From: Eubacterium sp.
GTDB lineage: Bacteria > Bacillota > Clostridia > Oscillospirales > Acutalibacteraceae
Length of the DNA stretch: 64,000 bases
NCBI GenBank assembly: GCA_017446095.1
Contig: JAFSRN010000009.1
Location: 1-64,000 of the forward strand
Reading direction: 5' to 3'
How positions within the stretch are numbered: the first letter of the stretch is position 1; every line of letters begins with the position of its first letter. The notes under the pieces were generated by a model. It had not been told where the DNA came from, searched no databases, and saw nothing but the letters and a program-made list of their open reading frames with translations. The translations under genes were made by a program, and so were the position numbers. Shown here in pieces: positions 16,728-62,900 of the stretch.

Positions 16728-16758
16728 TCCTAATTCCGAATTCCGCATTCCGAATTAT
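16728..16758. repeat. Heptamer array, AATTCCG units
   Basis: Four consecutive 7-bp units of the AATTCCG type (AATTCCG, AATTCCG, CATTCCG, AATTATA) fill the gap between GH43 and hisC. The GH43 stop codon at 16755 lies inside the array. Confidence 0.85.
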
Positions 16759-17702
16759 ACTCTGTCCTCATATCTCTCTGCAGTCAGAATGCCGTCATCT
16801 ACATTAATCTTACATATGCGGGCGTTGCGCGCGTCAAACGCGTTTGCGCCGAGCCCGTCATTGTAATCCCTCGCGTGGTAGATGGCGTACCACTGACCGT
16901 CTTTTTTTATCATCGAGTGGTGTCCCGTGCCTTCCTCAAAGCCGTTTGCCGCAATAATCGGGTGGTAGGTATTGTCGTCGGGATACTTTTCAAACTTAAT
17001 CTTGGTGAGGTCGGTTTCCTTCGTTTTCGCCCTCGCGTAGCCTATGTAATAGGTCGGCTGCTCGTAGCAGTTGCCCGAGTACATAACGTAGTGCCAGTCG
17101 CCCTCGCGGAAGTAGTACGCGCCCTCAATCGTGTGCCAGTGCTGACCTTCCTTATAGCGGTCGCGGTGGTAGATGTCCTCGTCAAGCGTCGGCTCAACAA
17201 CTACCTTCGGGTTGCGTTCAGGGGTGTAAGGGTCGAGCATTCTGTCCACCACAATATGCGTGCCGATTCTGTCGCCCTCAAACCTGTTTGTAGAGTAAAA
17301 CAGGAAGAGCCCGCTCTCGTTTTTAACTATGTGCGAGTCGATGGAAAACGGGTTGAGAATCTGCTTTGTGTCCCTGAACGGACCGAGCGGATTGTTAGCC
17401 TTGCTCACAAACATAGTCTGCCTGTGGCCGCCGATATCGGGGGTTGCGCCGTAGAACTCAAACGAGTTGTACATATAAAACCAGCCGTCAAGCTCAATAA
17501 CGCTCGGCGCCCAGAAGCCGTGATGCCCCGGCATAGTCATAACTATTCCGTGCAGCTTCCAATCGCCGAAAAGGTCGTCTGCATGGTAGGCGTAAATGCC
17601 GTCGTGCCCTGTGGTGTAAATATAGTAGCGTCCGCCGCTTTCAATAATATACGGGTCCGCCTGACCGATGTAGTTGTCTTTGTCAATCTGGAGTAAGTGC
17701 AT
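16755..17702 (-). CDS. Glycoside hydrolase family 43 protein
   Basis: A 315-residue five-bladed beta-propeller enzyme. GH43 signatures are the catalytic base aspartate in QADPYIIE, WAPSVIEL, the pKa-modulating aspartate in FSIDSHIVK, the general acid glutamate in TIEGAYYFR, and GTGHHSMIKK. Family members cleave arabinofuranosides or xylosides. There is no signal peptide, so it acts inside the cell on imported oligosaccharides. It lies in a minus-strand run with hisC and a hypothetical gene, without a dedicated sugar transporter nearby. Exact substrate is undetermined. Confidence 0.88.
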   Translation of the reverse strand: MHLLQIDKDNYIGQADPYIIESGGRYYIYTTGHDGIYAYHADDLFGDWKLHGIVMTMPGHHGFWAPSVIELDGWFYMYNSFEFYGATPDIGGHRQTMFVSKANNPLGPFRDTKQILNPFSIDSHIVKNESGLFLFYSTNRFEGDRIGTHIVVDRMLDPYTPERNPKVVVEPTLDEDIYHRDRYKEGQHWHTIEGAYYFREGDWHYVMYSGNCYEQPTYYIGYARAKTKETDLTKIKFEKYPDDNTYHPIIAANGFEEGTGHHSMIKKDGQWYAIYHARDYNDGLGANAFDARNARICKINVDDGILTAERYEDRV

Positions 17703-17712
17703 AGTGTTTCCT

Positions 17713-17788
17713 TAATTCGGAATGCGGAATTTCGGTTGCTTTGAATTCAGAATAATTCCTAATTCCGAGTTCCGAATTCCTAATTATT
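17713..17788. repeat. Paired inverted heptamer arrays
   Basis: The left arm repeats AATTCGG/AATGCGG and the right arm repeats AATTCCG/AGTTCCG in inverted orientation, separated by about 20 bp without a palindromic core. It fills the space between GH43 and the next upstream gene, whose stop at 17780 lies in the right arm. Confidence 0.85.
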
Positions 17789-18274
17789 TTTCTCTTCTTC
17801 AAGTTCCTTGATTTCTTTATAGAACATATTTGCCTTGAGGTAAACCTCAATAAAATCGTGGATTATATCCGCAAGCTCGCCCTCCTGATAGTTAATCGGC
17901 AGGATTCGCTCATCGTCGTCGATTGCAAGCGGACCTTTTTCAAAGTCATAAAACGTCGGCATCAACGAATAACCCGCCTGCATCTTTACAATTGAAATCA
18001 GCATATAATCCTTGGTTGCGTTAACAAAGCCTTTTTTCTTTGTAAAGCGCTCAATCGTCGAGGTTTCAACGCTGTCGTTGTGCTTCTTTGTGTAGCAGGC
18101 GTTGATTACCTTTTCAATATATTTTTCCACCTGCGCTGCAGAGTACGGCGCGTTTAACAGCATAACAGTGTCTATATCGGCAATGCCGTATTTGTCGCTT
18201 TCGCCGCAGGGGATGCCCACAAGGTTTTCATCCTTGTCAACGTAAACGGAAATTGTGTAAAACTCTCTGTCCAT
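17780..18274 (-). CDS. Hypothetical protein
   Basis: A 164-residue soluble protein, starting at ATG 18274 with AGGTGA six bases upstream (the GTG at 18283 overlaps that site). It is acidic with a C-terminal helical, Glu/Lys-rich end (KEIKELEEEKNN). Residues EFYTISVYVDKDENLVGIPC form a beta hairpin. No family or catalytic motif is recognised. It heads the minus-strand run leading to GH43 and hisC. Confidence 0.7.
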   Translation of the reverse strand: MDREFYTISVYVDKDENLVGIPCGESDKYGIADIDTVMLLNAPYSAAQVEKYIEKVINACYTKKHNDSVETSTIERFTKKKGFVNATKDYMLISIVKMQAGYSLMPTFYDFEKGPLAIDDDERILPINYQEGELADIIHDFIEVYLKANMFYKEIKELEEEKNN

Positions 18275-18361
18275 AACAGTCACCTGATCAAATTTTTTAT
18301 AATTATATACTATATGTTTGCAAAATTCAATAATAAATGTTATATTATTTTAGGTGATTAT

Positions 18362-19030
18362 ATGAAAAAAGTATTAATTACAGGTGCGGCAACGGGTATA
18401 GGCAAAGCCTGCGCCGAACTGTTTGTAAAAAATGGGTATGAAGTATTTGCGGTTTTTCACAAAACCCCGTGCGAAATTGAGGGCGTAACTGCCGTAAACT
18501 GCGACCTTGCAGATGTCGGCGATATTGAAAAACTGTTTGCCGAAGTCGGCGATGTTGACGTGCTTGTAAACAACGCAGGCGTGTCGCTTATTAAGATGAT
18601 TAACGACACAACGGCAGACGACTATGCAGCCGTAACCGCGGTTAACGAGCGCGCGGTGTATTTTTGCTCAAAACACGCCGCAATCGGTATGGTTAAAAAG
18701 CACACCGGCGCAATAATCAATATTTCCTCTATGTGGGGGCAGTGCGGCGCGTCGTGCGAAACGCTTTATTCAATGACAAAAGCAGGTGTTATCGGCTTAA
18801 CAAAGGCGCTTGCGCAGGAACTTGCACCGTCAGGTGTTACCGTAAACTGCGTTTGCCCCGGTATAATCAACACGCGTATGAACGCGCAGTTTGACAGTGC
18901 AGAGCTTGCAGATGAGGTGCCGCTCGGCAGACTCGGCACGGCTGCGGAAGTAGCAGACGCGGTGCTGTTTTTTGCACAAAACGGCTACACAACAGGGCAG
19001 GTGCTCGGCGTAAACGGTGGGATAGTATGA
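18362..19030 (+). CDS. Short-chain dehydrogenase/reductase (FabG/YmfI-like)
   Basis: A 222-residue NAD(P)-dependent oxidoreductase starting at ATG 18362 after AGGTGATT. Cofactor motif TGAATGIGKA, NNAGV, active-site Ser in NISSMWG, and Y-x-x-x-K in LYSMTKAGV, then PGIINTRM. It is likely a 3-oxoacyl-ACP reductase-type enzyme; substrate unknown. It overlaps the next gene by 4 bp (ATGA), starting a tight run that also holds trmN6-like, rsmI and a radical SAM gene. Confidence 0.88.
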   Translation: MKKVLITGAATGIGKACAELFVKNGYEVFAVFHKTPCEIEGVTAVNCDLADVGDIEKLFAEVGDVDVLVNNAGVSLIKMINDTTADDYAAVTAVNERAVYFCSKHAAIGMVKKHTGAIINISSMWGQCGASCETLYSMTKAGVIGLTKALAQELAPSGVTVNCVCPGIINTRMNAQFDSAELADEVPLGRLGTAAEVADAVLFFAQNGYTTGQVLGVNGGIV

Positions 19031-19773
19031 GTTACACTTTTGAGCGTTTATCGGATGATATAAAGATAGCCGTCACGCCCGACCACACCTTCGGCACGGA
19101 CGCGGTTATCCTTGCGTATTTTGCAAAGGCGAAGCGCAAGGACAGGTGCATTGATATGGGCACAGGCTGCGGAATTATACCGTTTTTGTGGCTGCGCGAC
19201 AGCGGGCAAAGCACCGTGCATTGCCTTGATATTCAGCAGAATGCGATTGAGCAGGTCAGTGCTTCGATTGAACACAACAACCTCGGCGGCAGGCTTGTGC
19301 CGCATCTGTGCGACCTGCGCGAAATTGAAAAGGAATTCACCCCCGAGGGCTTTACACTCGTCACGATGAATCCTCCGTACAAGCCCGTAAACACAGGCTT
19401 TGAGTCGCTTGGCGAAAGTGCGCGCATCGCACGCCACGAGGTCTGCTGCAATATTGAGGACGCGGTAAAGGCGGCGAACTATCTGCTGACCTACGGCGGC
19501 AGGTTCTGTATGTGCCACCGCCCTGAACGGCTTGTAGACGCGCTTGCAGTTATGCGGCAGTATAAAATTGAGCCAAAGCGCCTGCGGTTTGTAATGGACA
19601 AAGAGGGCGAAGAACCGTTTTTGTTCCTTGTAGACGGCAAAAAAGGCGCAAAGCCGTTTTTGCGCGTTGAGCCGCCGCTTGTCATAAAGGACAAGGAATC
19701 CAAATTCACAAAGGAAATGCTGTCTGTGTATGGTTCGTATGCGGACGGATACGAAAATGTAATTCGGAATTAG
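19027..19773 (+). CDS. TrmN6/YfiC-like tRNA adenine N6-methyltransferase
   Basis: A 248-residue SAM-dependent methyltransferase. SAM motif I is CIDMGTGCGIIPFLW and the amino-methyltransferase motif is VTMNPPYKP (NPPY). E. coli YfiC methylates A37 of tRNA-Val1; Firmicutes homologues (YabB type) lie next to rsmI, as here. It overlaps the SDR by 4 bp. The last four residues (VIRN) and the stop codon are encoded by the heptamer array beginning at 19761, so the C-terminus appears to have been rewritten by the repeat. Confidence 0.88.
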   Translation: MSYTFERLSDDIKIAVTPDHTFGTDAVILAYFAKAKRKDRCIDMGTGCGIIPFLWLRDSGQSTVHCLDIQQNAIEQVSASIEHNNLGGRLVPHLCDLREIEKEFTPEGFTLVTMNPPYKPVNTGFESLGESARIARHEVCCNIEDAVKAANYLLTYGGRFCMCHRPERLVDALAVMRQYKIEPKRLRFVMDKEGEEPFLFLVDGKKGAKPFLRVEPPLVIKDKESKFTKEMLSVYGSYADGYENVIRN

Positions 19774-19795
19774 GAATTCGGAAATCGGAATTATA
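19761..19795. repeat. Heptamer array, AATTCGG units
   Basis: AATTCGG, AATTAGG, AATTCGG, AAATCGG, AATTATA. It overlaps the end of the trmN6-like gene and stops just before the GGTGA ribosome site of rsmI. Confidence 0.9.
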
Positions 19796-19804
19796 GGTGA
19801 AGTT

Positions 19805-21540: not shown

Positions 21541-21972
21541 ATGAAAAAGTTTATTGCAGAATTCAAAGAGTTTATCCAGCAGGGCAATGTGCTTGACCTC
21601 GCTGTCGGCGTTATAATCGGCGGCGCGTTCAAGACAATTGTTGACGCTTTCATCGAAAACGTTATCAATCCTCTCATTGCCTGCGTAGGCGGCACAGACA
21701 TCGGTTTTGTTATCCCACTTGTTAAGAACCAGGCAATTGACCTTGGCAAGTTCATTTCCGCTATCCTGAATTTCCTTATCATTGCGTTTGTTGTATTCCT
21801 TATTGTTAAGTCGGCAAATAAGGCTAAGGAAATCGCAAAGAAGGGCGAAGAGGAAGAAGAGGAAGAAACCACAAAAACCTGCCCGTTCTGCAAGAGCGAG
21901 ATTGACATTGATGCTACAAAGTGCCCGCACTGCACATCTGATATTCCGGAGGAAGAAGCAGAGGAAGAATAA
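21541..21972 (+). CDS. mscL: Large-conductance mechanosensitive channel MscL with C-terminal zinc ribbon
   Basis: A 143-residue channel subunit starting at ATG 21541 with AAAGGAGAA. The N-terminal amphipathic helix and TM1 (FKEFIQQGNVLDLAVGVIIG and GAFKTIVDA) are classic MscL, and TM2 is FISAILNFLIIAFVVFLIVK. After an acidic linker (EEEEEETTK) the C-terminus has two C-x-x-C pairs (CPFCKSEI and CPHCTSDI), a rubredoxin-like zinc ribbon replacing the plain cytoplasmic bundle. The pentameric channel opens under membrane tension to release solutes. A metal- or redox-sensitive cytoplasmic gate is an inference. Confidence 0.95.
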   Translation: MKKFIAEFKEFIQQGNVLDLAVGVIIGGAFKTIVDAFIENVINPLIACVGGTDIGFVIPLVKNQAIDLGKFISAILNFLIIAFVVFLIVKSANKAKEIAKKGEEEEEEETTKTCPFCKSEIDIDATKCPHCTSDIPEEEAEEE

Positions 21973-21991
21973 TTCGGAATTCGGAGTTAAT
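21971..21991. repeat. Short heptamer array, AATTCGG units
   Basis: AATTCGG, AATTCGG, AGTTAAT directly after the mscL stop codon, which it overlaps. Confidence 0.75.
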
Positions 21992-25301: not shown

Positions 25302-25336
25302 CAATTCCGAATTCCGCATTCCGAAATCCGAATTAC
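25302..25336. repeat. Heptamer array, AATTCCG units
   Basis: Five units of AATTCCG/CATTCCG/AAATCCG type, ending in the tetR stop codon. A short GCGGG/CCCGC hairpin precedes it (25286-25299). Confidence 0.85.
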
Positions 25337-27783: not shown

Positions 27784-27906
27784 GTTTTAAGTTTTAAGTT
27801 TTAGGTTTAAGCTTTATGGCGGACTCTGTCCGCACCAATTTTATTGTTTGAGCGCAGCGAGTGACAATAAGCTTAACACTCAACACTTAACACTTAACAC
27901 TAATTT
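27784..27906. repeat. Composite element: inverted heptamer arrays with palindromic core
   Basis: The left arm is GTTTTAA units (27784-27814) and the right arm is CTTAACA units (27869-27906), which are near-complementary. Between them lie the GCGGAC/GTCCGC hairpin and GAGCGCAGCGAGTGAC. It fills the gap between aminotransferase and aldolase genes. Confidence 0.85.
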
Positions 27907-27925: not shown

Positions 27926-29143
27926 ATGTCATACGAAATTCAGCAAGCAAAAGAATTAGTAGTAAAAGCAGGTAAAGAGCTTATTGAAAAAGGTCTTATT
28001 GCCCGCACTTGGGGTAATGTTTCCGCCCGTATTTCCGAAACACAGTTTGTTATCACACCGTCGGGCAGAGCATATGAGGATTTAACCCCTGAGGAAATCG
28101 TTGTTGTTAACATCGACGATTGCTCTTATGAGGGCGACATCAAGCCTTCGTCGGAAAAGGGCGTTCACGCTGCTGCATACCGTCATCATCCTACGGTTGA
28201 CTTTGTAATCCACACTCACCAGAAGGCGGCTACCATCGTGTCCATCACGGGTATGGAAATCCGCAACGTTTACAGTGAGTTCAAACCCGTTCTCGGCGAA
28301 AAGGTTCCGTGCGCTGCATACGCAATGTCTACCACGGATTCGCTGCGCAAAAAGGTTGAAATGTGCATTATGATGAACCCGAGCGCACGCGCTATTATGA
28401 TGATGCATCACGGCACGGTTTGCATGGGCGACTCATACGAGCACGCATTTGCACTTGCAGAAAATCTTGAAAATTGCTGCGAAAAGGTTATTAAGGATAA
28501 CTACCTTCGTCACTCATGGGCAAAGACCTACAGCGACGACGATAAGAGGAATTACTTCCTTAATAAAAAAGAAGCAGGCACAATGCCTGACGAGATTGCA
28601 GACCTCGGCTCATCTGTAAGAAACGGCAAAACCTTCACACTCACAGTCGGCGGCAAGAGCGTTGACGTTGACGTTGAAACAGGCGTTGGTATTAACGGTG
28701 TTCCGCCTAAAGTAGAAAAGCTGCACAGAGCAATCTACAATACAGAGGATTGCACGTTTATCCGCCAGATTGCATCTCCCGACGTTGTTGCAGTATCCTG
28801 CACGGGCGAAGGCATGACCCCGATGATTGACGACTTTGCACAGATTGTCGGCACGGACGTTAAGAATATCGCGTGGGTTGACGGCGACACAGACGCTTGC
28901 GCTAAAGAAGCAGGCGAGGCTATCGACCAGAGGAACGCAGTTCTTGTACAGGGCGCAGGCGCGCTCATCACAGGTAACACGGAGGGCGACCTGCAGGCGC
29001 TTGACATTATTATGGATAAGGCTTGCCAGGCAGTTATTGATGTTGATATCTTCAACCGCGCTCACTATGTACCAAAACTTGAGTGTATGCTGATGCGTAC
29101 CGTTTACCTCGCAAAATACTCAAAGAAAATCGATGAGAAATAA
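27926..29143 (+). CDS. Class II aldolase/adducin-family protein, tandem domain
   Basis: 405 residues from ATG 27926 (AAGGGAGA site). The first domain (about 1-215) has the metal and catalytic residues of fuculose-phosphate aldolase type enzymes: Glu in PSSEKGVHAA, the pair of histidines in VIHTHQKA and a third in MMMHHGTVCMG. The second half (about 240-400) looks like a degenerate copy (CTGEGMTPMIDDFAQIVG and LQALDIIMDKACQ) without the histidines. It probably splits a phosphorylated sugar or polyol into triose-type products. Together with the kinase and aminotransferase it defines a TetR-controlled catabolic locus with unknown substrate. Confidence 0.85.
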   Translation: MSYEIQQAKELVVKAGKELIEKGLIARTWGNVSARISETQFVITPSGRAYEDLTPEEIVVVNIDDCSYEGDIKPSSEKGVHAAAYRHHPTVDFVIHTHQKAATIVSITGMEIRNVYSEFKPVLGEKVPCAAYAMSTTDSLRKKVEMCIMMNPSARAIMMMHHGTVCMGDSYEHAFALAENLENCCEKVIKDNYLRHSWAKTYSDDDKRNYFLNKKEAGTMPDEIADLGSSVRNGKTFTLTVGGKSVDVDVETGVGINGVPPKVEKLHRAIYNTEDCTFIRQIASPDVVAVSCTGEGMTPMIDDFAQIVGTDVKNIAWVDGDTDACAKEAGEAIDQRNAVLVQGAGALITGNTEGDLQALDIIMDKACQAVIDVDIFNRAHYVPKLECMLMRTVYLAKYSKKIDEK

Positions 29144-29447
29144 AAAAGAGCCTTCGGGCACCCTACGGAAATAGGGTTAGGTTTTGGCTTTGTCCTTTTG
29201 CCCCTAAAGATATTAAAAACCGTCTGAATACGCGAGTATGCAGGCGGTTTTGTAATCCCTTTATGACCTAAAATTACTTTGCCAAAACTGCTTTGCACCC
29301 AAAAATGAGCAGATTTTTTGTTAGAACAAAGCACAAAATCACCATAAGGCTGACGCCTTATGGCGATTTTTAATACAGTTATAGCGGAAAAGATGCCATT
29401 TTTGGGCTGACACTATTTTCGCAGGGTGCCCCTTCGGGCTCTTTTTT
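29142..29447. mobile_element. MITE-like structured element with terminal inverted repeats
   Basis: The termini AAAAAAGAGCC...GCACCCT (29142-29164) and AGGGTGCCCC...GCTCTTTTTT (29423-29447) are inverted copies, and each forms an outward-facing terminator hairpin. Inside, CCCAAAAATG (29298) pairs with CATTTTTGGG (29397), enclosing a 16-bp stem AAAATCACCATAAGGC/GCCTTATGGCGATTTT (29335-29370) and TTTGTT/AACAAA. No ORF of note. It could be a non-autonomous element or encode a structured RNA. The gap 29144-29724 otherwise holds only repeats. Confidence 0.6.
29335..29374 (+). terminator. Strong hairpin with T run inside the structured element
   Basis: A 16-bp stem with one mismatch, loop TGAC, then TTTTT on the plus strand. 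A T-rich flank also exists on the minus strand, so it could terminate in either direction. Confidence 0.6.
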
Positions 29448-29553: not shown

Positions 29554-29652
29554 TGTTCAATTGGGGACAGTCTCCAATTGAACATTAGTCCCCAATTGAA
29601 CATTGCGATATCGTTTATATCGCAACGGGGCGTCGGGGACGCCGCCCCCTAC
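29554..29652. repeat. Composite repeat: 31-bp palindrome, GATATC hairpin and REP
   Basis: The TGTTCAATTGGGGAC palindrome (29554-29584), a half copy (29586-29603), the hairpin TTGCGATAT/ATATCGCAA and a reverse REP hairpin ending in CTAC (29627-29652). The same order of modules occurs at 39240-39318. Confidence 0.85.
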
Positions 29653-32532: not shown

Positions 32533-32567
32533 AAATTCCGAATTCCGAACTCCGAATTCCGAATTAC
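32533..32567. repeat. Heptamer array, AATTCCG units
   Basis: Five units of AATTCCG/AACTCCG between ypeB and the lipoprotein gene. The ypeB stop codon (32564) lies in the array. Confidence 0.85.
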
Positions 32568-34228: not shown

Positions 34229-34346
34229 ATAATTATGAATTATGAATTATGAATTTCGGGTGCTGCGCACGGCTATTATATTAATCGGGTGAGGGCAGCG
34301 CCCTCCATTAATTCTCAATTATCAACTCTCAATTCTCCATTGATTA
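34229..34346. repeat. Composite element: inverted heptamer arrays with palindromic core
   Basis: Left arm AATTATG units (34229-34257), right arm TTCTCAA-type units (34307-34346). The core has GTGCTGCGCAC, the AT-rich CTATTATATTAA and GAGGGCAGCGCCCTC. The amino-acid ABC ATPase stop codon (34344) touches the right arm. Confidence 0.88.
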
Positions 34347-42213: not shown

Positions 42214-42394
42214 AATTATGAATGATGAATTATGAGTTATGAATTTCGGGCGGGGCACCCGCACCCGATTATATTATGGAATGTCGAGGTCGCCATTCCC
42301 TACAATGTAGGGAGCGGCCACCGGACGCTCCACATTATTGTCCGAGCGCAGTGAGTAACCACAATTCATCATTCATAATTCATAATTCATCATT
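42212..42394. repeat. Composite element: long inverted heptamer arrays flanking a head-to-head REP pair
   Basis: Left arm of AATTATG/AATGATG units (42212-42245) and right arm of CATAATT/CATCATT units (42361-42394) are nearly complementary. The core has GGGGCACCCGCACCC, AT-rich ATTATATTA, a reverse REP (42278-42303, ends CTAC), AAT, a forward REP (42307-42331, starts GTAG) and GAGCGCAGTGAG. The final codons and stop of the MATE gene lie in the right arm. Confidence 0.92.
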
Positions 42395-43813: not shown

Positions 43814-43859
43814 ATTGAGTGTGAGCGAGGCTCACCAAACAACTGAAAACTGAAATCAG
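43814..43859. repeat. Short heptamer element
   Basis: GTGAGCGAGGCTCAC hairpin followed by ACTGAAA, ACTGAAA and a partial unit. A reduced version of the composite elements. Confidence 0.6.
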
Positions 43860-44831: not shown

Positions 44832-47216
44832 ATGAAAAAGGTACTTAGTATACTCTTATCGGTGGTGATGCTGCTTTCCGTAACCGCAGGACTGAATATC
44901 AGCGCTTTTGCGCTGAACAGCAGCGGTGAATGCGGCAGTGACGCAACTTACACGTTTGACGAAGCGACGGGTGAGCTTGTTATTAGCGGAAGCGGTTTGC
45001 TTCGTGGTTACGCTTTTCAAGATGTGGACAGTATAAAGTCTGTTATTATCAATGACGGTATCACGAATATCAGCACCGGGTTATTTCTCGATTGCACCAA
45101 TCTTGAGAGTGTAATAATAGGCGATAGCGTAAAAAATATTGACGCAGAAGCCTTCAGGAACTGCATAAGTCTTGCAAGTGTGACGATGGGCAGCGGCGTA
45201 ACAGTTATTGGCTGCGGCGCTTTTACCAAATGCACAAGCCTTGCAAGCATAGAAATACCGAACAGTGTAACAAGGATTGACGTTTATGCATTTGAAGGCT
45301 GCACAAGCCTTGCAAGCATAGAAATACCGAACGGTGTAACAAAGATTGATGGTACTCTCTTTAAAGACTGCACAAGCCTTACAAGTGTAACAATGGGCAA
45401 CGAGGTAACAACAATATGCGACGCGGCTTTTTACTGTTGCACAAGTCTTGCAAACATAGAAATACCGAACAGCGTAACAAGCATTGGCAGTAATGCATTT
45501 AATGGCTGCACGAGTCTTTCAAGCATAGAAATTCCGAACGGTGTAACGTGCATTGACCCGGGTACTTTCAGAGGCTGCACAAGTCTTGCAAGTGTAGAAA
45601 TACCAAACGGTGTAACAAGTATTGACAGTTTTGCATTTGCAGACTGCATAAGTCTTACGAGCATGGTGATACCGAACAGTGTAACAAGCATTGGCGATTC
45701 TGCCTTCGAAGGCTGCAAAAGTCTTGCGAGCATAGAAATACCGAACAGTGTAACAAACATTGGCGATTCTGCTTTTGAAGACTGCGCAAACCTTGAAAAT
45801 GTTTCGTTACTTAACGGCTTGAAAACTATAGGCAAAGAAGCTTTTTATGATTGCGATAAGCTGACGGCGTTAACCGTTCCTGCCTCTGTAACACACATAG
45901 GCGAAGAAGCGTTTTACGATTGCGACAGCATAAAAAGCGTAACGTTTGAAGACTGTGCCGCCGATATAGGCGAAGAAGCTTTTTGCGGTTGTGACAGCTT
46001 GACCGACGTAGAATTCGGCAACAAGCTTACAGGTTTAGGCAAAAACGCATTCAGCGGTTGCGTTAAAATCAAAAGCATTAGTATCCCAAAAAGCGTAACA
46101 AATATCGACGCTCCTCTGTTTGCCGGCTGCAACAGCTTAACAAGCCTGACGGTTGATAATGACAACACGGTTTACGACAGCAGGAACAACTGCAACGCGA
46201 TTATCCAAACTGCAACAGATTCGCTTATCAGCGGCTGCGGTGCCACCGTATTCCCAAGTGGTATTAAGAGTATCGGCGACGGAGCGCTTTATCAGACAAA
46301 AGGCTTAACGCAGGCAGTTATTCCGGAAGGTGTTACGGCAATAGGAGATAACGCATTCAGCTCGTGTTACAAGCTTAAAAAATTAAGTATTCCAAAGAGC
46401 GTGACAAGCATCGGCTCTAACGCGTTCAATCTCTGCGTTTCACTGACAAGCGTCAGCATTAACAGCGATATCGCAGAGATAAGCGAGGGAATGTTTTATG
46501 ATTGCTTTTATCTTAACGAAGTGACAATTCCCAAAAGTGTAAAAAAGATATGCAACGACGCGTTTAACGGCTGCTCCGACCTGGCACGTGTTTACTATGA
46601 GGGAAGCAAGGACGAGTGGAACGAGATTACCCTCTTTGACGGTAACAACAGCATAAAAAGCGCTGCTAAAACGTATAACTATATCATCCACGACCACAGC
46701 TACAAAGCTGTTGTAACCGCACCTACCTGCGCTGCGCAGGGCTACACTACCCACACCTGCACAATCTGCGGCAAGAGTTATAGGGACAATTATGTCAAAG
46801 CAACGGGCAAGCACACTTTCACAAACGGCAAAATTACTTCAACCACTGCTACAACCTACACTAAAACTTTCACCTGCAGCGGTTGTAAGTCAACGTGTAA
46901 AAATACGTTCAATAAATCCGAAAACACGCTCGTCGCAAAGGGCAAAACAAAAAAGATAAAGCTTGCAACGCTTAAGAAAAAGAACGTCACCGTTGAGCGC
47001 AAAGACGCAATCGATGTAAGCAAAAACATCGGCAAAGTGACATATAAAAAGACAAACGGCAACGGCAAAATTTCCGTATCGCCTGCAGGCAAAATCACCG
47101 TTAAGAAGGGACTTAAAAAGGGCACGTACAAAGTGAAAGTGAATGTCACCGCAGCGGGCAACAGCACCACAAAAACGGCTACAAAACCCGTTACGGTTAC
47201 AATCGTAGTAAAATAG
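44832..47216 (+). CDS. BspA-like leucine-rich repeat surface protein
   Basis: 794 residues from ATG 44832 (TGGAGGAT site). Signal peptide MKKVLSILLSVVMLLSVTAG. About 20 repeats of 23 residues follow (about 85-600) with the Treponema/BspA pattern CTSLASIEIPNSVTSIGSNA. Then a Cys-rich module (CAAQGYTTHTCTICGKSY and TKTFTCSGCKSTC) and a Lys-rich Ig-like end (KKGTYKVKVNVTAAGNS). No sortase motif, so the Lys-rich end may bind the wall. The family mediates adhesion and host or glycan contact. Repeats in the middle are nearly identical in DNA, so copy number may vary. Confidence 0.93.
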   Translation: MKKVLSILLSVVMLLSVTAGLNISAFALNSSGECGSDATYTFDEATGELVISGSGLLRGYAFQDVDSIKSVIINDGITNISTGLFLDCTNLESVIIGDSVKNIDAEAFRNCISLASVTMGSGVTVIGCGAFTKCTSLASIEIPNSVTRIDVYAFEGCTSLASIEIPNGVTKIDGTLFKDCTSLTSVTMGNEVTTICDAAFYCCTSLANIEIPNSVTSIGSNAFNGCTSLSSIEIPNGVTCIDPGTFRGCTSLASVEIPNGVTSIDSFAFADCISLTSMVIPNSVTSIGDSAFEGCKSLASIEIPNSVTNIGDSAFEDCANLENVSLLNGLKTIGKEAFYDCDKLTALTVPASVTHIGEEAFYDCDSIKSVTFEDCAADIGEEAFCGCDSLTDVEFGNKLTGLGKNAFSGCVKIKSISIPKSVTNIDAPLFAGCNSLTSLTVDNDNTVYDSRNNCNAIIQTATDSLISGCGATVFPSGIKSIGDGALYQTKGLTQAVIPEGVTAIGDNAFSSCYKLKKLSIPKSVTSIGSNAFNLCVSLTSVSINSDIAEISEGMFYDCFYLNEVTIPKSVKKICNDAFNGCSDLARVYYEGSKDEWNEITLFDGNNSIKSAAKTYNYIIHDHSYKAVVTAPTCAAQGYTTHTCTICGKSYRDNYVKATGKHTFTNGKITSTTATTYTKTFTCSGCKSTCKNTFNKSENTLVAKGKTKKIKLATLKKKNVTVERKDAIDVSKNIGKVTYKKTNGNGKISVSPAGKITVKKGLKKGTYKVKVNVTAAGNSTTKTATKPVTVTIVVK
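45172..45790 (+). repeat. Near-identical 69-bp coding repeats in the LRR gene
   Basis: Consecutive 69-bp units start with TGCACAAGTCTTGCAAGC-like sequence and carry ATAGAAATACCGAACAG. Several neighbours differ at only a few bases, while the units after 45790 are diverged. This fits recent unit duplication or gene conversion. Confidence 0.85.
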
Positions 47217-50852: not shown

Positions 50853-50857
50853 GCCTC

Positions 50858-50970
50858 AGCTTTCAGTTTTCGGTTTTCAGTTTTCGGCTTGTTGGTGCTG
50901 CGCACGGCAATAATATGGGTATGGGCGAAGCCCATCCCTGCTGAACACTGAACACTGAATACTGAACACC
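50858..50970. repeat. Composite element: inverted heptamer arrays with palindromic core
   Basis: Left arm GTTTTCA/GTTTTCG units (50858-50887), right arm CTGAACA units (50941-50970), which read GTGTTCA on the other strand. Core: GTGCTGCGCAC, AT-rich CAATAATATG, and ATGGGCGAAGCCCAT. It separates hypA from the membrane gene. Confidence 0.9.
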
Positions 50971-53126: not shown

Positions 53127-54368
53127 ATGACAGTACAGGAACTCGGAATCAAAGCAAAAAAGACGCAGACGTTTCTGTCGCGCGTCAGCACAGAAGATAA
53201 AAACCGCGCACTGCTTGCAATCGCAGACGCGCTTGAAAACGGCAAGGACGAAATTATCGCAGCCAACGCCATCGACCTTGAAAACGGCAAAAAAGCAGGG
53301 CTCGGCGCAGGTCTGCTTGACAGGCTTATGCTCAACGCACAGCGCATTGACGGCATCGCAGACGGCGTGCGTCAGGTTGCGGCTCTGCCCGACGCTTGCG
53401 GTAAGGTCGTGTATGAGTACGAAAAGGATAACGGTCTTAAGATTCAGAAAATCACCGTGCCTATCGGCGTTATCGGCATTATCTACGAGGCACGCCCCAA
53501 CGTCACAGCCGACGCTGCGGCGCTCTGCCTTAAAAGCGGCAACGCGGTAATCCTGCGCGGCGGCAAAGAGGCTATTAACTCAAACAAGGCAGAAGTCGAA
53601 ATTATGCAGAGAGCGCTTGAGGGCGCAGGCTTCCCCCGCGACACAGTGCAGCTTGTTGAGGACACCACGCGTGCCTCTGCAACAGAGATGATGAAAATGA
53701 CCGACTACCTCGATTGCCTTATTCCGCGCGGCGGCAAGGGGCTTATTAAGTCGGTGGTTGAGAGCTCTACCGTTCCCGTTATCGAAACGGGTTCGGGCAA
53801 CTGCCACATCTACGTTGACGAGAGCGCGGATATCGATATGGCGGCGAACATAATCTTCAACGCAAAAACGCAGCGCATCAGCGTATGCAACGCTTGCGAA
53901 AGCCTTGTTATTCACTCTGCGGTTATCGCAAAGGCACTGCCTGCAATCAAGGCGCGTCTTGACGAAAAGAATGTGGAAATCCGCGGCGACGAACGTGCGC
54001 AGGCAGCCTGCGGCGGCATTATTCCTGCTACCGAAGAGGATTTTTACACCGAGTACCTTGACTATATTATCAGCGTTAAAACGGTTGATTCGCTTGACGA
54101 GGCGATTGACCATATCAACGAACACTCCACCGGTCACAGCGAGGCGATTATCACGGCAAACGACGATAACGCAAAGAAGTTTATGCAGTGCGTAGATTCA
54201 TCGTCTGTATACGTTAACGCTTCAACACGCTTTACAGACGGCGGCGAGTTCGGCTTGGGTGCGGAAATAGGCATCAGCACGCAGAAGCTGCACGCCCGCG
54301 GACCTATGGGCATCGACGGACTGACGTCAACGAAGTATCTGATTTTCGGGGAAGGGCAGATTAGATAA
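53127..54368 (+). CDS. proA: Gamma-glutamyl phosphate reductase
   Basis: 413 residues, aldehyde-dehydrogenase fold. IYEARPNVTADAAALCLKSG and GGKEAINSN bind NADPH and substrate, the catalytic cysteine is in RISVCNACESLVIH, and TDGGEFGLGAEIGISTQKLH is near the end. It reduces glutamyl-5-phosphate to the semialdehyde. AAGGAGAT site. proC is not in the window. The stop codon is followed immediately by a heptamer array. Confidence 0.97.
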   Translation: MTVQELGIKAKKTQTFLSRVSTEDKNRALLAIADALENGKDEIIAANAIDLENGKKAGLGAGLLDRLMLNAQRIDGIADGVRQVAALPDACGKVVYEYEKDNGLKIQKITVPIGVIGIIYEARPNVTADAAALCLKSGNAVILRGGKEAINSNKAEVEIMQRALEGAGFPRDTVQLVEDTTRASATEMMKMTDYLDCLIPRGGKGLIKSVVESSTVPVIETGSGNCHIYVDESADIDMAANIIFNAKTQRISVCNACESLVIHSAVIAKALPAIKARLDEKNVEIRGDERAQAACGGIIPATEEDFYTEYLDYIISVKTVDSLDEAIDHINEHSTGHSEAIITANDDNAKKFMQCVDSSSVYVNASTRFTDGGEFGLGAEIGISTQKLHARGPMGIDGLTSTKYLIFGEGQIR

Positions 54369-54530
54369 ATGATGAATGATGAATTGCGGTTGCTTGCTGC
54401 GCTCGGACAATTTTAACGGACGAGCACTGCTCGTCCCTACGATGACAGCAAAAAATATAATATTCCGTAGGGACGACCATTGGTCGTCCGCAATACAATG
54501 AGCGTAGCTCACTCATAATTCATAATTATT
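54367..54530. repeat. Composite element: heptamer arms around a head-to-head REP pair
   Basis: Left arm AATGATG units (54367-54386) and right arm CATAATT units (54511-54530). The core holds a reverse REP GGACGAGC/GCTCGTCC ending CTAC (54418-54440), 26 bp with AT-rich AATATAATATT, and a forward REP GTAG GGACGACC/GGTCGTCC (54467-54489), then GAGCGTAGCTC. Confidence 0.92.
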
Positions 54531-54542: not shown

Positions 54543-55814
54543 ATGAAAAACGATTATTTTGAAAATGACGGCGCTGATACAAAGCGCAAAAAACGCAAGA
54601 AGAAAAAGAAGGAACGCAAGGCGCTCAAGGGCTTTTTAGTGTTCATTTCTATGGTAGTAGTGGGGCTTACCGTGTTTGTTATTACGGTCAAGCTGCTCGC
54701 ACCCGACTTTGACTTTTCCACGCTTGTTCCAAAGAAGGCGTACACCTTTGTGGACGAGAAGATTATGGGGCACACCACAACTACCGAGCCTACCACAACC
54801 ACCACTACGGAACCCACCACCGCCGAGCCGACCACGGCAAAGCGCATTGACTACCTTGAGTTCGACGAGTTTGAGATGAACACCGAGCGCCAGGGCAACG
54901 CGATGGGTAACCTTATGAACGGCGGTCAGGTTGCAACCGACTACTCGTACATCTACCACATCACGACCACGGGCATCTACCGCATTAATCCCGAAACGGA
55001 GGATTACGCGCGTATTTACGAAACGAAGGACAAGCTGTCCTCGCTCAATCTGCGCGGCGATTTTCTGTACTTCGTTAACGAAAAGTCGCACGAGCTTCTT
55101 AAGATGGAAAAAGGCAGTTCCGAGCCCTCGCGCATTGCAAAGGACGTCCGCTTTGCTTATGTTTACGACAATAAGATTTTCTACGTAACTACGGGCAACA
55201 CGCTGTGCGTTATGGCAATTAAGGATATGAAGCCGTCGCAGATTTACTCCTCTGCGGACAACGAGCTTCGCCTCGTAGGTATTTCGCTCAAGCGCGTGTT
55301 CTTTGCGGTTACAAACGGTCTTGGCAAGATTGATTACCTCACCGTTGAGCTTGATGACGAGGAACGCGCCGTTGCACCTTTCCGCGACAGTGAGGAAAAC
55401 AGCGACTCAAAGCTCGTTATGGAAAACGGCTTTATGTACTACTACACGCCAAACGGCAGCGGCACGTACAATGTCTGCCGCCAGAAGTTCGGCAGCGAGC
55501 AGGTTGTTACGCTTGCCGAGGATTCCGACGCGTCAAGCTACATCGAGGTGGACAGCAACAGGCTGTTCTACCCCGAATACAAGGACGGCAGCTATATGCT
55601 TACCGAGGTGAATATGAACTCGGGCGACAGTCGCTATCTTATGACGATAAAAGACGTTGACTCACAGCATCAGCTTAAGTATTACCACAGCTATCAGTAC
55701 GATTTTGTTATAGGCAAAACCGCTGCCGACGGCAAGGACATCTACCGCGCAGGCTGCGTATTCACCGGCTCAACGCACTATATGAAGTTTAATAAGGGCA
55801 ACTGGTCTTATTAG
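54543..55814 (+). CDS. Membrane-anchored DUF5050-like beta-propeller protein
   Basis: 423 residues. A very basic cytoplasmic N-terminus (TKRKKRKKKKKERKALKG), one membrane helix (VFISMVVVGLTVFVITVKLL), a Thr/Glu/Pro linker (TTTTEPTTTTTTEPTTAEPT), then repeated beta blades such as YSYIYHITTTGIYRINPE, RGDFLYFVNEKSHELLK and NGFMYYYTPNGSGTYNVC. DUF5050-type propellers occur in surface proteins of Clostridia; no enzyme motif. Precedes a flippase gene, so a link to surface polysaccharide is possible. Confidence 0.8.
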   Translation: MKNDYFENDGADTKRKKRKKKKKERKALKGFLVFISMVVVGLTVFVITVKLLAPDFDFSTLVPKKAYTFVDEKIMGHTTTTEPTTTTTTEPTTAEPTTAKRIDYLEFDEFEMNTERQGNAMGNLMNGGQVATDYSYIYHITTTGIYRINPETEDYARIYETKDKLSSLNLRGDFLYFVNEKSHELLKMEKGSSEPSRIAKDVRFAYVYDNKIFYVTTGNTLCVMAIKDMKPSQIYSSADNELRLVGISLKRVFFAVTNGLGKIDYLTVELDDEERAVAPFRDSEENSDSKLVMENGFMYYYTPNGSGTYNVCRQKFGSEQVVTLAEDSDASSYIEVDSNRLFYPEYKDGSYMLTEVNMNSGDSRYLMTIKDVDSQHQLKYYHSYQYDFVIGKTAADGKDIYRAGCVFTGSTHYMKFNKGNWSY

Positions 55815-55904
55815 TTAGCCGTTAGCCGTGTGCCGTTAGCAGACTTAATATAATAGGCGTGGACGAAGTCCACCCGATAACTGCAAACTGCAAACTGCAA
55901 ACTG
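55812..55904. repeat. Composite element: two different heptamer arms around a GTGGAC core
   Basis: Left GTTAGCC/GTTAGCA units (55812-55842), right AACTGCA units (55877-55904). Core: AT-rich TTAATATAATAGG and GTGGAC GAA GTCCAC. It starts at the stop codon of the preceding gene and ends 16 bp before the flippase ATG. Confidence 0.88.
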
Positions 55905-57356: not shown

Positions 57357-57456
57357 ATGCGCTCGGCGCATGAGGGCATCGCGCCCTACAGAATAATGGG
57401 TGAGGGCGAAGCCCTCCTGACACTAACCACCGTCCACTGTCCACTGAACACTAATA
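57357..57456. repeat. Composite element with REP-like hairpin and GTCCACT heptamers
   Basis: ATGCGC/GCGCAT hairpin, a short reverse REP (GGGC...GCCCTAC, 57374-57389), GAGGGCGAAGCCCTC, then CGTCCACTGTCCACTGAACA units (57430-57449 region). The arm is on the right side only. Confidence 0.8.
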
Positions 57457-60044: not shown

Positions 60045-60048
60045 AACT

Positions 60049-60154
60049 GTAGGGGCGGATATCATCCGCCCTTAACTATCCACCGTCCGCATACAATAGG
60101 TGTGGACGGAGTCCACCCGACACTGTCCACTATCCACTGTTCACCGTCCACTAT
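60049..60154. repeat. REP-like hairpin joined to a composite heptamer element
   Basis: GTAG GGGCGGAT/ATCCGCCC (60049-60071) starts 5 bp after glgP. Then ACTATCC/ACCGTCC units, AT-containing ATACAATAGG, GTGGAC GGA GTCCAC (60099-60118) and a right arm of GTCCACT/ATCCACT/GTTCACC units (60121-60154), which ends 5 bp before the GH13 start codon. Confidence 0.88.
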
Positions 60155-60158
60155 AAAT

Positions 60159-62018
60159 ATGCAAATCTTCAACTCGCGCAAAACAGAATACAAGGACATA
60201 ATCAGAGCCGTTGCCACTGACGAAGGGGTAAGGCTTCGCATTGTTGTGCCCAGAAGTATGTCCTGCAACTGCGCGATGCTATGCGTTCATAAGGATAAAG
60301 AGGAAAATGTTTTTTACTCAATGTTCTGGGCAGGTATGTGCGGCAGCGACCACGAGTACTGGGAACTGCATTTTTCAGCCACAACGCCCGGACTTTACTG
60401 GTACCACTTTGAACTTGACACGCCGTGGGGCAGGAACTTTGTTTACAATGTCGGCGGCGGTGTGGGCGATATTGCGCCTACGGGCAACGACTTCCAGCAG
60501 ACGGTGTACGACAGGAACTTTACCACGCCCGACTGGCTCAAGGGCGGTCTGATTTACCAGATTTTTCCCGACCGTTTCTTCAACAGCGGCACGCCTAAAG
60601 TCGGTGTGCGCGAATCGCGCGTAATGCGCGACTGGGGCGACGAGCCTTACTGGAAAGAGGAACAGATGGGCGGCGTCTGGAACAACGACTACTTCTGCGG
60701 CGACCTAAAGGGTATTGAGGAAAAACTGCCTTATCTTGCGGATTTGTGCGTAAGCTGCATCTACCTCAACCCGATATTTGAGGCTAACTCAAATCACCGT
60801 TACGACACCGCGGACTATGAACGCATCGACCCGCTGCTCGGCACGGAATACGACCTTAAGGACCTCTGCAAAAAGGCAAAGGAAGAATACGGCATCAGCA
60901 TTATTCTTGACGGCGTGTTCAGCCACACGGGCTGCGACAGTAAATATTTTAACATATATAATAACTACGACAGCGTGGGCGCTTACAACAGCAAGGAAAG
61001 CCCGTACTTTTCGTGGTACAAATTCATAGATTATCCAAACGACTACCATTCGTGGTGGGGCATTAAGCTTTTGCCCGAGGTTATTGAGGAGGACGAGAGC
61101 TACCGCAATTATATCTGCGGCAAGCACGGTATTCTGCGCAAGTGGCTGCGCTGCGGCATTAGCGGCTGGCGGCTTGACGTTGCAGACGAGCTGCCCGATA
61201 TTTTCCTTGACGATTTGCGCAAAACCGTTAAGGACGAAAATCCCGACGCGGTTATTATCGGCGAGGTCTGGGAGGATGCCACCACCAAGTTTGCCTACGG
61301 CGAGCGCAGGCGCTACCTGATGGGGCAGCAGCTTGATTCGGTTATGAACTATCCGTTTGCGGACGCGGTGCTTAATTTTGTGCGCTTTAAGAATGCGGAC
61401 GCGTTCTTTGACAGCGTGCTCAGCATAGTGGAAAACTATCCGCCGCAGGTCACAAACGTGCTGATGAATCACATCGGCACGCACGACACGGAACGTGCAA
61501 TCAACCGCCTTGCAGGCGAGGACTGCGAGGGTCACGGCAGGGAATGGCAGTACGAGCGCAATAAACTTTCGCAGTACGACTACCTGCACGGCGTGTCGCT
61601 GCTGAAGCTCGCCTCGCTGTTGCAGTACACCTTGCCCGGCGTGCCATCGCTCTACTACGGCGACGAAATCGGTATGATGGGCTACAAGGACCCGTTTAAC
61701 CGCGGCTGTATGCAGTGGGATAACATCAACGAAGAACTGCTGCGCTGGTACAAACGCCTTGGCGAAATCAGGCGCGGCTGCCACGTGTTTAAGGAAGGTG
61801 CGTTTGAGCCTGTGTTCTGCTCGCATAAAACTATTGCCTACAAGCGCACCGACGAGGCAAGCGAAGTGCTTATTGCAATGAATCTTGACGAAATGCCGAT
61901 AGAAATCGAAATCGGCGCAGAGTGGAACAATTCCTACACCCTGCTCGGCGACGTCAGCGGCGCAGAAAAAATAACCCTCGAGCCGTATAGGTACGCGCTG
62001 ATTACGAGAGTGAAATAG
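60159..62018 (+). CDS. GH13 alpha-amylase-family enzyme (neopullulanase/alpha-glucosidase-like)
   Basis: 619 residues from ATG 60159. An N-terminal beta-sandwich (about 1-130) like CBM34/neopullulanase domains, then the catalytic barrel: DGVFSHTG (region I), GWRLDVADELP with the nucleophile Asp (region II), IIGEVWEDA with the acid Glu (region III), NHIGTHDTERA with the transition-state Asp (region IV), and a C-terminal beta domain. Intracellular, no signal peptide. It probably hydrolyses maltodextrins, cyclodextrins or glycogen branches together with GlgP. No ribosome site is visible because the heptamer array abuts the start. Confidence 0.93.
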   Translation: MQIFNSRKTEYKDIIRAVATDEGVRLRIVVPRSMSCNCAMLCVHKDKEENVFYSMFWAGMCGSDHEYWELHFSATTPGLYWYHFELDTPWGRNFVYNVGGGVGDIAPTGNDFQQTVYDRNFTTPDWLKGGLIYQIFPDRFFNSGTPKVGVRESRVMRDWGDEPYWKEEQMGGVWNNDYFCGDLKGIEEKLPYLADLCVSCIYLNPIFEANSNHRYDTADYERIDPLLGTEYDLKDLCKKAKEEYGISIILDGVFSHTGCDSKYFNIYNNYDSVGAYNSKESPYFSWYKFIDYPNDYHSWWGIKLLPEVIEEDESYRNYICGKHGILRKWLRCGISGWRLDVADELPDIFLDDLRKTVKDENPDAVIIGEVWEDATTKFAYGERRRYLMGQQLDSVMNYPFADAVLNFVRFKNADAFFDSVLSIVENYPPQVTNVLMNHIGTHDTERAINRLAGEDCEGHGREWQYERNKLSQYDYLHGVSLLKLASLLQYTLPGVPSLYYGDEIGMMGYKDPFNRGCMQWDNINEELLRWYKRLGEIRRGCHVFKEGAFEPVFCSHKTIAYKRTDEASEVLIAMNLDEMPIEIEIGAEWNNSYTLLGDVSGAEKITLEPYRYALITRVK

Positions 62019-62189
62019 AATGATGAATGATAAATGATGAATGATGAATTTAGGTTACTCGGCTTTGCCTCAGACAATAAGTAGGGGTCAATCATGATTG
62101 ACCCGCGGGCGATTCTTGAATCGCCCCTACAATGAGTGTGAGCGAAGCTCACCCTAAATTCATAATTCATAACTCATAATTCATAATTA
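62017..62189. repeat. Composite element: inverted heptamer arrays around a tail-to-tail REP pair
   Basis: Left arm AATGATG units (62017-62052), right arm CATAATT units (62154-62189). Core: GTAG GGGTCAATC/GATTGACCC (62081-62104), two bases, then a reverse REP GGGCGATTC/GAATCGCCC ending CTAC (62107-62130), then GTGAGCGAAGCTCAC. Confidence 0.93.
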
Positions 62190-62190
62190 A

Positions 62191-62218
62191 AACGGTAACC
62201 ATTTGGTTGCCGTTTTTT
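62191..62218 (+). terminator. Terminator of the GH13 gene
   Basis: AACGGTAACC ATTT GGTTGCCGTT then TTTT. Confidence 0.88.
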
Positions 62219-62247
62219 AATAATATTTGAAAAATGATAATTAATTA

Positions 62248-62276
62248 TTGACAAACAATAATTATTGTGCTATAAC
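62248..62276 (+). promoter_or_regulatory. Promoter with internal palindrome for the DUF2975-XRE pair
   Basis: TTGACA (62248-62253), 17-bp spacer, TATAAC (62271-62276). A perfect palindrome ACAATAATTATTGT (62255-62268) fills the spacer and is a candidate operator for the small XRE repressor encoded downstream. Confidence 0.7.
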
Positions 62277-62306
62277 AATGGTGAAAATTACCTTTGGAGG
62301 TACACT

Positions 62307-62783
62307 ATGAAATACAGTATCAAGAGCGCAGGACTGACGCAGATTGTCGTCAGAATATGCTATGTGCTGCTTGCGGCGTCGGTGATTTTGTTCCCGATTC
62401 TTATGAAGCAGCAGGACGGCGACACATTCTATTTTGTTATGATTGCCGAGCACGGCAAGTACCTGATTTTTCCGTTTTATGCGGTTGTGCCTGCAGGCTA
62501 TGCTGCGCTGATTTGCCTTGACAAACTGCTCACCAACATCAAGCGCGACATTGTGTTTGACGAGCGCAACGTCACAATTCTCGGCACGCTCACGCTGTGC
62601 TGCCTTTACGCGGCGCTTGTCGGCGTGGTTTCGTACATCGTAATCGCGCTGTGCTACAAGTCAATCGAAACGGTGCTTCTCCTCGCCTTCGGCGAAGCGT
62701 TTATGGCGCTCGTCATCCGCGTAGTCCGCGATGTAATCAAAAAGGCGATTGAGATTAAAGAGGATAATGACCTCGTTGTTTAG
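62307..62783 (+). CDS. DUF2975-like membrane protein
   Basis: 158 residues from ATG 62307 (TGGAGG site), with four predicted membrane helices. It fits the DUF2975 pattern: small four-helix protein whose C-terminal loop-helix segment (MALVIRVVRDVIKKAIEIKE) precedes DNDLVV. In Firmicutes such genes are nearly always followed by a small XRE regulator, as here at 62912. Role unknown; a membrane partner of the regulator is one possibility. Confidence 0.82.
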   Translation: MKYSIKSAGLTQIVVRICYVLLAASVILFPILMKQQDGDTFYFVMIAEHGKYLIFPFYAVVPAGYAALICLDKLLTNIKRDIVFDERNVTILGTLTLCCLYAALVGVVSYIVIALCYKSIETVLLLAFGEAFMALVIRVVRDVIKKAIEIKEDNDLVV

Positions 62784-62900
62784 AATGTAGAATGGAGAAT
62801 GGAGAATGGAGAATTTAGGGTGGACTTTGTCCACACCTATTATAATAGCCGTGCGCAGCACCATTAATTCTCAATTCTCAACTCTCAATTCTCAATTATT
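62782..62900. repeat. Composite element: inverted GAGAATG arrays around GTGGAC and GTGCGCAGCAC cores
   Basis: Left arm GGAGAAT units (62782-62817), right arm TTCTCAA units (62864-62900), complementary. Core: GTGGAC TTT GTCCAC, AT-rich CTATTATAATAG (itself palindromic), and GTGCGCAGCAC. It separates the DUF2975-like gene from its regulator gene. Confidence 0.93.

Follow-up and report, generated by a model that had tools for sequence, protein, structure and literature searches.

What produces arrays of 7-bp units in which the length of the unit stays constant while its sequence drifts from locus to locus? The question is raised by seventeen such arrays in a stretch of 64,000 nucleotides (the window), positions 1 to 64,000 of contig JAFSRN010000009.1 from Eubacterium sp. 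(assembly GCA_017446095.1). The arrays probably form the ends, or arms, of a mobile insertion element which carries, in its full form, a gene of the PF05635 family (23S rRNA-intervening-sequence or S23p four-helix-bundle family). The gene-bearing form would be arranged as arm, (hairpin), PF05635 gene, (hairpin) and inverted arm, with this gene as its sole gene, and S23p would be the likely driver of its movement. The copies in the window would be gene-less doublets (arm, hairpin, hairpin, arm) resembling miniature inverted-repeat transposable elements (MITEs), or single arms, moved in trans.

The original prediction, made on the window alone, had listed seventeen array starts with a period of exactly 7 bases and units that differ by locus and share one degenerate form. 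All of this is borne out. For every start, Tandem Repeats Finder (TRF) reports a row of period 7 no more than 50 bp away. The weakest arrays are four: those at 21971 and 43840 have 2.1 copies each, the row of the 17713 array begins at 17753 with the opposite arm at 17714-17731, and the degenerate array at 60074 has its row at 60121-60152. The scan also covered 20 other stretches of the same genome (G000), 455,673 bases in total with the window. When an array is defined strictly, as a run with at least 21 matches out of 25, period 7 occurs 99 times and every other period from 4 to 15 occurs 0-2 times, after removal of runs having a shorter period (a filter which takes period 14 from 15 to 0). 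The check on period-7 frequency proposed with the prediction thus reveals a large excess.

A looser threshold raises the number of period-7 arrays in the same scan to 149. Since 78 of them measure 30-33 nt, the length is nearly constant and corresponds to four heptads plus four bases. A typical arm consists of five 4-base words and four 3-base spacers (triads), 32 nt in all (e.g., AATT CTC AATT CTC AACT CTC AATT CTC AATT), and heptad units are common to many loci of G000. The middle word is deviant in 41 of 64 AATT-type arms (AACT in 18, CATT in 18), compared to 6, 20, 22 and 15 for the other four words; AACT is found 0-4 times outside the middle word, while CATT is frequent elsewhere too. A universal NANT+NNN grammar was not used: [AC]A[CT]T+NNN fits 129 of the 149 arrays, yet the chance fit was judged high (by hand) and several heptads from other phyla do not conform. 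A feature absent from the original prediction is that many arrays are closely paired in inverted orientation, with one or two small GC hairpins between them. The arrays of the window are as follows (relatives are given by G numbers, with one genome per species in the comparison set).

16724..16756, minus strand: lone arm of CCG units, at the stop of the minus-strand gene that lies upstream; by scan, G036 and G101 lack an array, and G034 and G006 have another heptad.
17714..17785, no strand: short arm pair with a 29-nt centre, CGG/CCG units; by scan, no array in four relatives; by eye, a degenerate array of another unit in G006.
19761..19792, plus strand: lone arm of CGG units, before rsmI, at a junction that is an ATGA gene overlap in relatives.
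21971..21985, plus strand: two-unit arm remnant AATTCGG overlapping a TAA stop codon.
25303..25334, minus strand: lone arm of CCG units, flanked by a hairpin on one side; no array in four relatives, other heptads at the gap in G006.
27784..27901, no strand: arm-hairpins-arm doublet, TAA units.
32534..32565, minus strand: lone arm of CCG units at a TAA stop codon.
34231..34341, no strand: doublet with unlike arms, CAT left and CTC right.
42214..42394, no strand: CAT doublet, linker filled by palindromes like repetitive extragenic palindromic (REP) sequences.
43841..43855, plus strand: two-unit remnant AACTGAA.
50856..50969, no strand: GAA doublet with A/C arms, between hypA and a DUF5692 gene; relatives empty or with other heptads.
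54364..54527, no strand: CAT doublet with REP-like palindromes inside.
55814..55904, no strand: doublet, GCC/GCA units.
57427..57452, plus strand: right arm, GTC unit, hairpin upstream.
60074..60152, no strand: degenerate left part and right arm, GTC unit.
62018..62188, no strand: CAT doublet with C/A arms and REP-like palindromes in the linker; a different heptad, GTAAGCA, in G036.
62781..62897, no strand: CTC doublet with C/A arms; the gap is 18 bp in G036.

The arms are inserted DNA, as is seen at the junction before rsmI. In nine listed relatives (G036, with 93% protein identity, G006, G010, G101, G034, G031, G003, G037 and G001) the two genes overlap by the four bases ATGA. In G000 the junction is occupied by a CGG arm of 32 nt plus a stretch resembling a ribosome-binding site. 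G039 and G052 carry an arm built of a different heptad, accompanied by a hairpin; a heptad-armed insertion of a third kind is seen in G007, and in G050 and G002 the junction holds a hairpin element in which heptads are not clear. The junction has thus received four unlike insertions, three of them heptad-armed, and because their sequences are unlike they appear to be independent. Judged by eye, the insertions finish in a ribosome-binding-site-like stretch. Similarly, the gap between hypA and the DUF5692 gene holds elements of four heptad types in seven genomes and is empty (60-68 bp) in seven others.

Five relatives were compared with G000 at 55 orthologous gaps which bear an array in G000: 48 are array-free, 7 hold another heptad, and the heptad of G000 recurs in none; gaps that are array-free in G000 hold an array in 1 of 84 relatives' gaps (p=0.0065 for shared hot gaps). 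The scan misses degenerate arrays below threshold, which are visible by eye at 17703 in G006 and at 50853 in G036 and G034.

A clean case was found among cyanobacterial plasmids. Plasmid D of Nostoc sp. C052 contains a 417-bp insertion with heptad arrays at both ends and an S23p gene only; plasmid B of this strain and a Nostoc sp. ATCC 53789 plasmid both lack it, clean to the base, and in the empty plasmid B the flanking stop and start codons stand three bases apart. Four insertions were aligned (Calothrix, Aulosira, Nostoc C052 and Nostoc ATCC 53789 plasmid c), and the alignment is base-clean for Nostoc C052 only.

These sites bear on the idea that the arrays are simple-sequence repeats born in place by polymerase slippage, with 7 nt favoured by the DNA segment in contact with the polymerase (a 2007 hypothesis cited in the excerpted text of PMC4692102). 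Arrays reach about 16 units in some other genomes, as slippage would allow, and heptamers are reported to be over-represented in many bacteria. However, growth from a local seed is not what the empty rsmI and Nostoc sites indicate: complete arms stand where the relatives have no seed heptad. The absence of the same heptad from all 55 orthologous gaps, together with the ready-made arm before rsmI, argues that the arrays are not slippage tracts made in place. Moreover, other periods are not elevated, and slippage leaves unexplained both the inverted pairing and the linkage to one gene family described below. The AATT arm, searched as a single pattern with one mismatch allowed, has 2-111 matches in 18 of the 60 genus genomes and none in the other 42. 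Slippage is therefore very improbable. A model of 7-nt staggered cutting and fill-in was rejected because the empty rsmI site has no seed of the unit. Of the "active 7-nt mechanism" put forward in the original prediction, it remains that something active lies behind the arrays, while the making of 7-nt repeats in place is not supported, as empty sites receive ready-made arms and units recur at many G000 loci. Its check on conservation among relatives turned out as it expected, in that arrays are not kept at orthologous gaps.

The arms have a definite organisation. Close array pairs in G000 (n=55) have the same L...R polarity (LR) in 51 cases, the reverse (RL) in 3, and one is unclear. One or two small hairpins and an AT-rich linker lie between the paired arms, with larger palindromes nested in some. 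The same triad is present in both arms of 33 out of 54 pairs (shuffle mean 10.1, maximum 19 over 2000), and 29 of these 33 doublets have A in one arm and C in the other at word position 1 (shuffle mean 17.7; none of 5000 reaches 29). This A/C rule rests on G000, since G039 and G052 have four and one same-triad LR pairs, of which three and one obey. Polarity was also considered as a universal trait and abandoned: in loci of many phyla, all 17 that have an inverted partner agree in it, but it is reversed in G150 and mixed in G039 and G052, where the LR share of close pairs is 12/20 and 7/13, respectively. In G150 (L275-L282), heptads of opposite polarity surround GGGGACA...TGTCCCC hairpins, and several heptad types are found in one gap. 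A palindromic module of about 65 bp (CCCTTGGAGCGGGCGCC...AGGGGAA) occupies the loop of an element hairpin when L194 (G039, near 8600) is compared with L232 (G052), being present in one genome and absent in the other; this module is a second small mobile unit aimed at hairpin tips.

If the arms pair, a mismatch recurs after every six base pairs. Among 18 aligned doublets, pairing holds in 91% of the cells of the 28 stem pairs, with 34 cells changed on both sides (12.5 when shuffled), and in 77% of those of the first hairpin, with 14 such cells (4.8 when shuffled). Position-1 pairs are paired in 20% of cells, compared to 53% after shuffling, every shuffle being at or above the observed value. 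The number of pairs with any double change (9 vs 8.1; 4 vs 2.5) and the further pair types do not exceed the shuffles, which take no account of relatedness. The RNA folds of six examples have z values from -2.7 to -8.3.

The elements are located at gene junctions near stop codons, with fast turnover. Ten of the 149 G000 arrays fall in naively called coding sequence, 7 at an edge and 132 between genes; the latter are in co-directional gaps in 102 cases, convergent in 17 and divergent in 13 (p=1e-4 against gap length). Arm ends gather at stop codons in G000, where 8 of 10 CCG-type single arms begin within 2 bases of one. Of 80 loci from many phyla (described below), 40 have an outer neighbour gene that ends towards the arm; in 13 of these, by naive gene calls, no more than 3 bases separate the arm from the stop codon of that gene.

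Such placement, the compensatory changes in stems with a mismatch at every seventh pair, and the ribosome-binding-site-like ends seen by eye would suit elements that are retained between co-transcribed genes for a role in regulation or mRNA structure, through REP-like transcript protection, translational control or the G-quadruplex effects proposed for GC-rich heptads. This explanation is quite unlikely: relatives share little, AT-rich units cannot form G-quadruplexes, and the bias towards co-directional gaps is expected if insertions are tolerated at junctions only.

Arms and PF05635 genes are linked. A search for genes between left and right arms of the same triad (350-3500 bp) returned five, three of which belong to PF05635. 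The gene-bearing element on contig 6 of G000 (L031) is arranged as arm, hairpin, gene, hairpin and arm, with CTC arms as in the gene-less doublets and no further long frame beside the PF05635 gene. This PF05635/TIGR02436 gene characterises the full form and is lacking in the window copies, the matches of G000 being on C2, C6 and C14. Among the genus genomes, PF05635 is present in 18 of 18 arm-bearing genomes versus 14 of the 42 others (p=5e-7), and its copy number follows the number of arms (rho 0.73 over the 60 genomes, 0.87 within the 18). None of 14 well-known control genomes has it.

The genus scan examined 71 PF05635 genes from 73 loci, open frames below 240 bases being skipped. Arrays lie within 300 bp on both sides of 29 of them (matching and inverted in 27), on one side of 11 and on neither side of 31. 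In comparison, among 383 genes of G000 taken as controls, 32 are flanked by arrays on both sides and 3 by matching ones, one of the 3 being itself a PF05635 gene. The more similar two of the PF05635 proteins are, the more similar are their heptads (r=0.62 over 29 genes and 0.57 over 26 after dereplication; none of 5000 permutations is as high), so that a given clade of the protein goes with a given heptad. Most of the armless genus genes cluster on the protein tree, on which arm presence changes 5 times, compared to 22 in shuffles.

The association extends well beyond the genus. The 32-nt arm is not specific to Clostridia and is present in contigs of many phyla: a pattern centred on AACT matches at least 114 stretches, and 80 loci among the matches listed were examined. 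Outside the seeded arm, these loci (560,011 bases) hold 77 more period-7 arrays, compared to at most 4 for any other period, and an inverted partner is present in 17 of them, always on the same side. In 59,107 bases from 17 loci of genus genomes without arrays, no such array was found. PF05635 was found in 46 of 49 arm-bearing genomes reached via 50 of the 80 loci. Arrays stand on both sides of the gene at 10 of 30 PF05635 loci of other phyla (9 matching and inverted; L420, a run of N, was counted as one-sided). In the phylum of the window (Bacillota), 12 of 398 genomes have the arm pattern, and PF05635 is present in 9 of these versus 64 of the 386 others (p=2e-5).

One S23p query matches 30 plasmid records; the ten examined are all cyanobacterial, with arrays on both sides of the gene in nine by scan and in the tenth by eye. 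Their annotated neighbours are protein genes. L519 and L520 are 97% identical and hence not independent. Among the cyanobacterial loci, S23p elements with different heptads sit at the cas6/cas4 junction of CRISPR operons in L521 (Anabaena sp. 90) and L524 (Pseudanabaena galeata). The same kind of search with one query gave no S23p match in phage records.

The length of the arm suggests how the protein could recognise it. S23p is a toroidal homopentamer according to the excerpted text of PMC4990558, and the solved relatives 2rld and 2gsc have five chains each. Each subunit of the pentamer may bind one heptad, so that five tetrads with three-base spacers fill the 32 nt of an arm. If so, the period and the arm length would be fixed by the one-subunit-per-heptad geometry, and the unit would drift as the specificity of the protein changes.

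Two other partner candidates were discarded. Elements like REP doublets forming hairpins (REPINs), moved by the REP-associated tyrosine transposases (RAYTs, Y1), would explain the REP-like palindromes of some linkers, and Y1_Tnp genes are numerous in some arm-rich genomes. However, Y1 transposases fail the co-occurrence and bracketing tests: none of 20 Y1_Tnp loci is bracketed on both sides by heptad arrays within 300 bp or reveals a RAYT sharing the repeat, many Y1_Tnp loci have GGGGAC/GTCCCC or GGGGTC/GACCCC palindromes of their own, and G034, G036, G026 and G029 bear arms without a Y1_Tnp match. This explanation is extremely improbable. A reverse transcriptase, the hallmark of diversity-generating retroelements, was rejected too, RVT_1 having no match in G000 or in 10 of the 13 arm-bearing genus genomes tested.

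A different possibility is that other machinery, from the host or acting in trans, moves the element, and that S23p is an arm-binding passenger, repressor or RNA chaperone. To our knowledge, the PF05635 family has no catalytic domain or activity. Avd, a relative, is accessory to a reverse transcriptase; of three proteins, one has a match to the NCBIfam model DivGenRetAVD, below the cut-off of the model. The existence of armless PF05635 genes also fits a passenger. On the contrary, neither the 417-bp Nostoc insertion nor the gene-bearing element of G000 offers another gene (no other annotated gene and no other long frame, respectively), RVT_1 is unmatched as described above, and PF05635 copy number follows arm number. 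A role for other machinery is thus somewhat unlikely.

Several observations weigh against a mobile element driven by S23p. The association of arms with S23p is no proof that the protein mobilises them. Armless PF05635 genes are common (31 of 71 in the genus, 13 of 30 in other phyla), and the protein evidently does not need arms everywhere. Fourteen genus genomes have PF05635 without AATT-type arms (the G027 match being under the family cut-off), three of the 49 and three of the 12 arm-bearing genomes show no PF05635, and one of the nine phylum positives (G110) is under the cut-off. L031 and L209 were found via their arms; without both, 25 of 69 genes have matching arms. The genus presence calls rely on one pattern, whose reversed control gives 0-18 matches per arm-bearing genus genome. 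The edges are inconsistent: ATGA, GTGA or ATG on both sides at rsmI would be an ATGA-like target duplication, and the Nostoc site has none. G036 and G101 are array-poor in the stretches compared (2.2 and 0 per 100 kb); without them, the orthologous gaps are 26 empty, 6 with a different heptad and 0 with the same, out of 32. The closer species G039 and G052 share the same heptad in at least three gaps and differ in four. Finally, polarity is reversed in G150, which belongs to the same phylum.

Known systems resemble these elements in part. The 23S rRNA intervening sequences (IVS) with an S23p/IVP gene have in common with them the PF05635 family and inverted repeats at the ends. In the excerpted text of PMC4990558, the Coxiella IVS has tandem heptamers directly before the S23p gene, in numbers varying between strains, and a mobile-element origin is proposed for 23S rRNA IVS. 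The heptad elements differ in lying between protein genes and not in rRNA (no insertion in a 23S helix appeared in the loci checked), in having arrays at both termini and in their many gene-less copies per genome. No large-subunit rRNA was found in the 20 armless PF05635 loci scanned, a scan which did not include arm-flanked chromosomal loci. A tRNA or Gut-1 RNA is present in 11 of these 20: a tRNA gene in L407, L408, L411, L417, L499 and L507, and Gut-1 RNA (RF01706) in L412, L414, L506, L507, L508 and L509. Gut-1 may be part of a second type of S23p element.

The GGGAATC repeats of Xanthomonas and the GGGGA(C/T)T repeats of Nostoc have a period of 7, mostly four units and intergenic positions closer to the 5' neighbour gene; 7-8% lie between divergent genes, and close opposite-strand pairs number 70 and 75 (excerpted text of PMC4692102). 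They resemble the present arms in period, unit number, intergenic site and opposite-strand pairing. In those excerpts they are presented as G-quadruplex repeats and not as element ends, with no mention of S23 or intervening sequences. The same silence holds for the excerpted text of PMC4679880 on the cyanobacterial TAACTGA repeats. These and the cyanobacterial heptamers known as short tandemly repeated repetitive (STRR) sequences are locus-specific and intergenic, as here; in the present analysis, cyanobacterial plasmid S23p genes are flanked by such arrays, which upholds the likeness to cyanobacterial repeats noticed in the original prediction. Among the listed titles and abstract openings of the open-access literature, no work linking intergenic heptamers to S23p was found.

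REPINs, bacterial interspersed mosaic elements (BIMEs) and MITEs are small and modular, with gene-less copies, inverted ends and a partner gene elsewhere, and the same is true here. The present elements differ from REPINs, BIMEs and MITEs in that the ends are heptad arrays and the partner is neither a RAYT nor a known transposase; as in MITEs, the terminal inverted repeats are common to gene-less and gene-bearing forms (in L031 of G000, the hairpins and the CTC arms resemble those of the doublets). They are best described as heptad-armed insertion elements, of which the window contains gene-less derivatives and the S23p gene is the likely driver.

Other repeats were noticed in the window. REP-like palindromes tagged with GTAG are nested in element linkers at 54417-54490, about 62085-62135 and about 42280-42335, and GGGGAC/GTCCCC palindromes, of the kind that flanks Y1 transposase genes in relatives, are at 11054-11086, 39240-39270 and 29569-29640. 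An 805-aa open frame contains a 69-bp repeat in about 8 copies (45231-45789). A repeat of about 305 bp, 91% identical, is found at about 29140-29440 and in L018 at about 13000-13310, with a further 165-bp copy in L035. At gathering scores, a tRNA is the sole Rfam match in the window.

A broader proposal can be made tentatively. The heptamer arrays of Clostridia, Bacteroidota and Xanthomonas (GGGAATC) and the cyanobacterial STRR might all be the ends of one pan-bacterial minimal mobile element whose sole gene encodes the pentameric S23p ring. The ring would read one heptad per subunit, favour stop/start junctions and move DNA without a known recombinase, transposase or reverse transcriptase, the 23S rRNA IVS being the special case of an element landed in rRNA. 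The arm-element explanation gives a common, testable origin to heptanucleotide repeats which have so far been described as unexplained simple-sequence repeats, and it accounts for lineage-specific spacer changes inside operons by element insertion. It also offers a first lead to the function of S23p/IVP, a family that is widespread but has no known role. If S23p does move the element, this would be a mobile element without a recognised catalytic domain.

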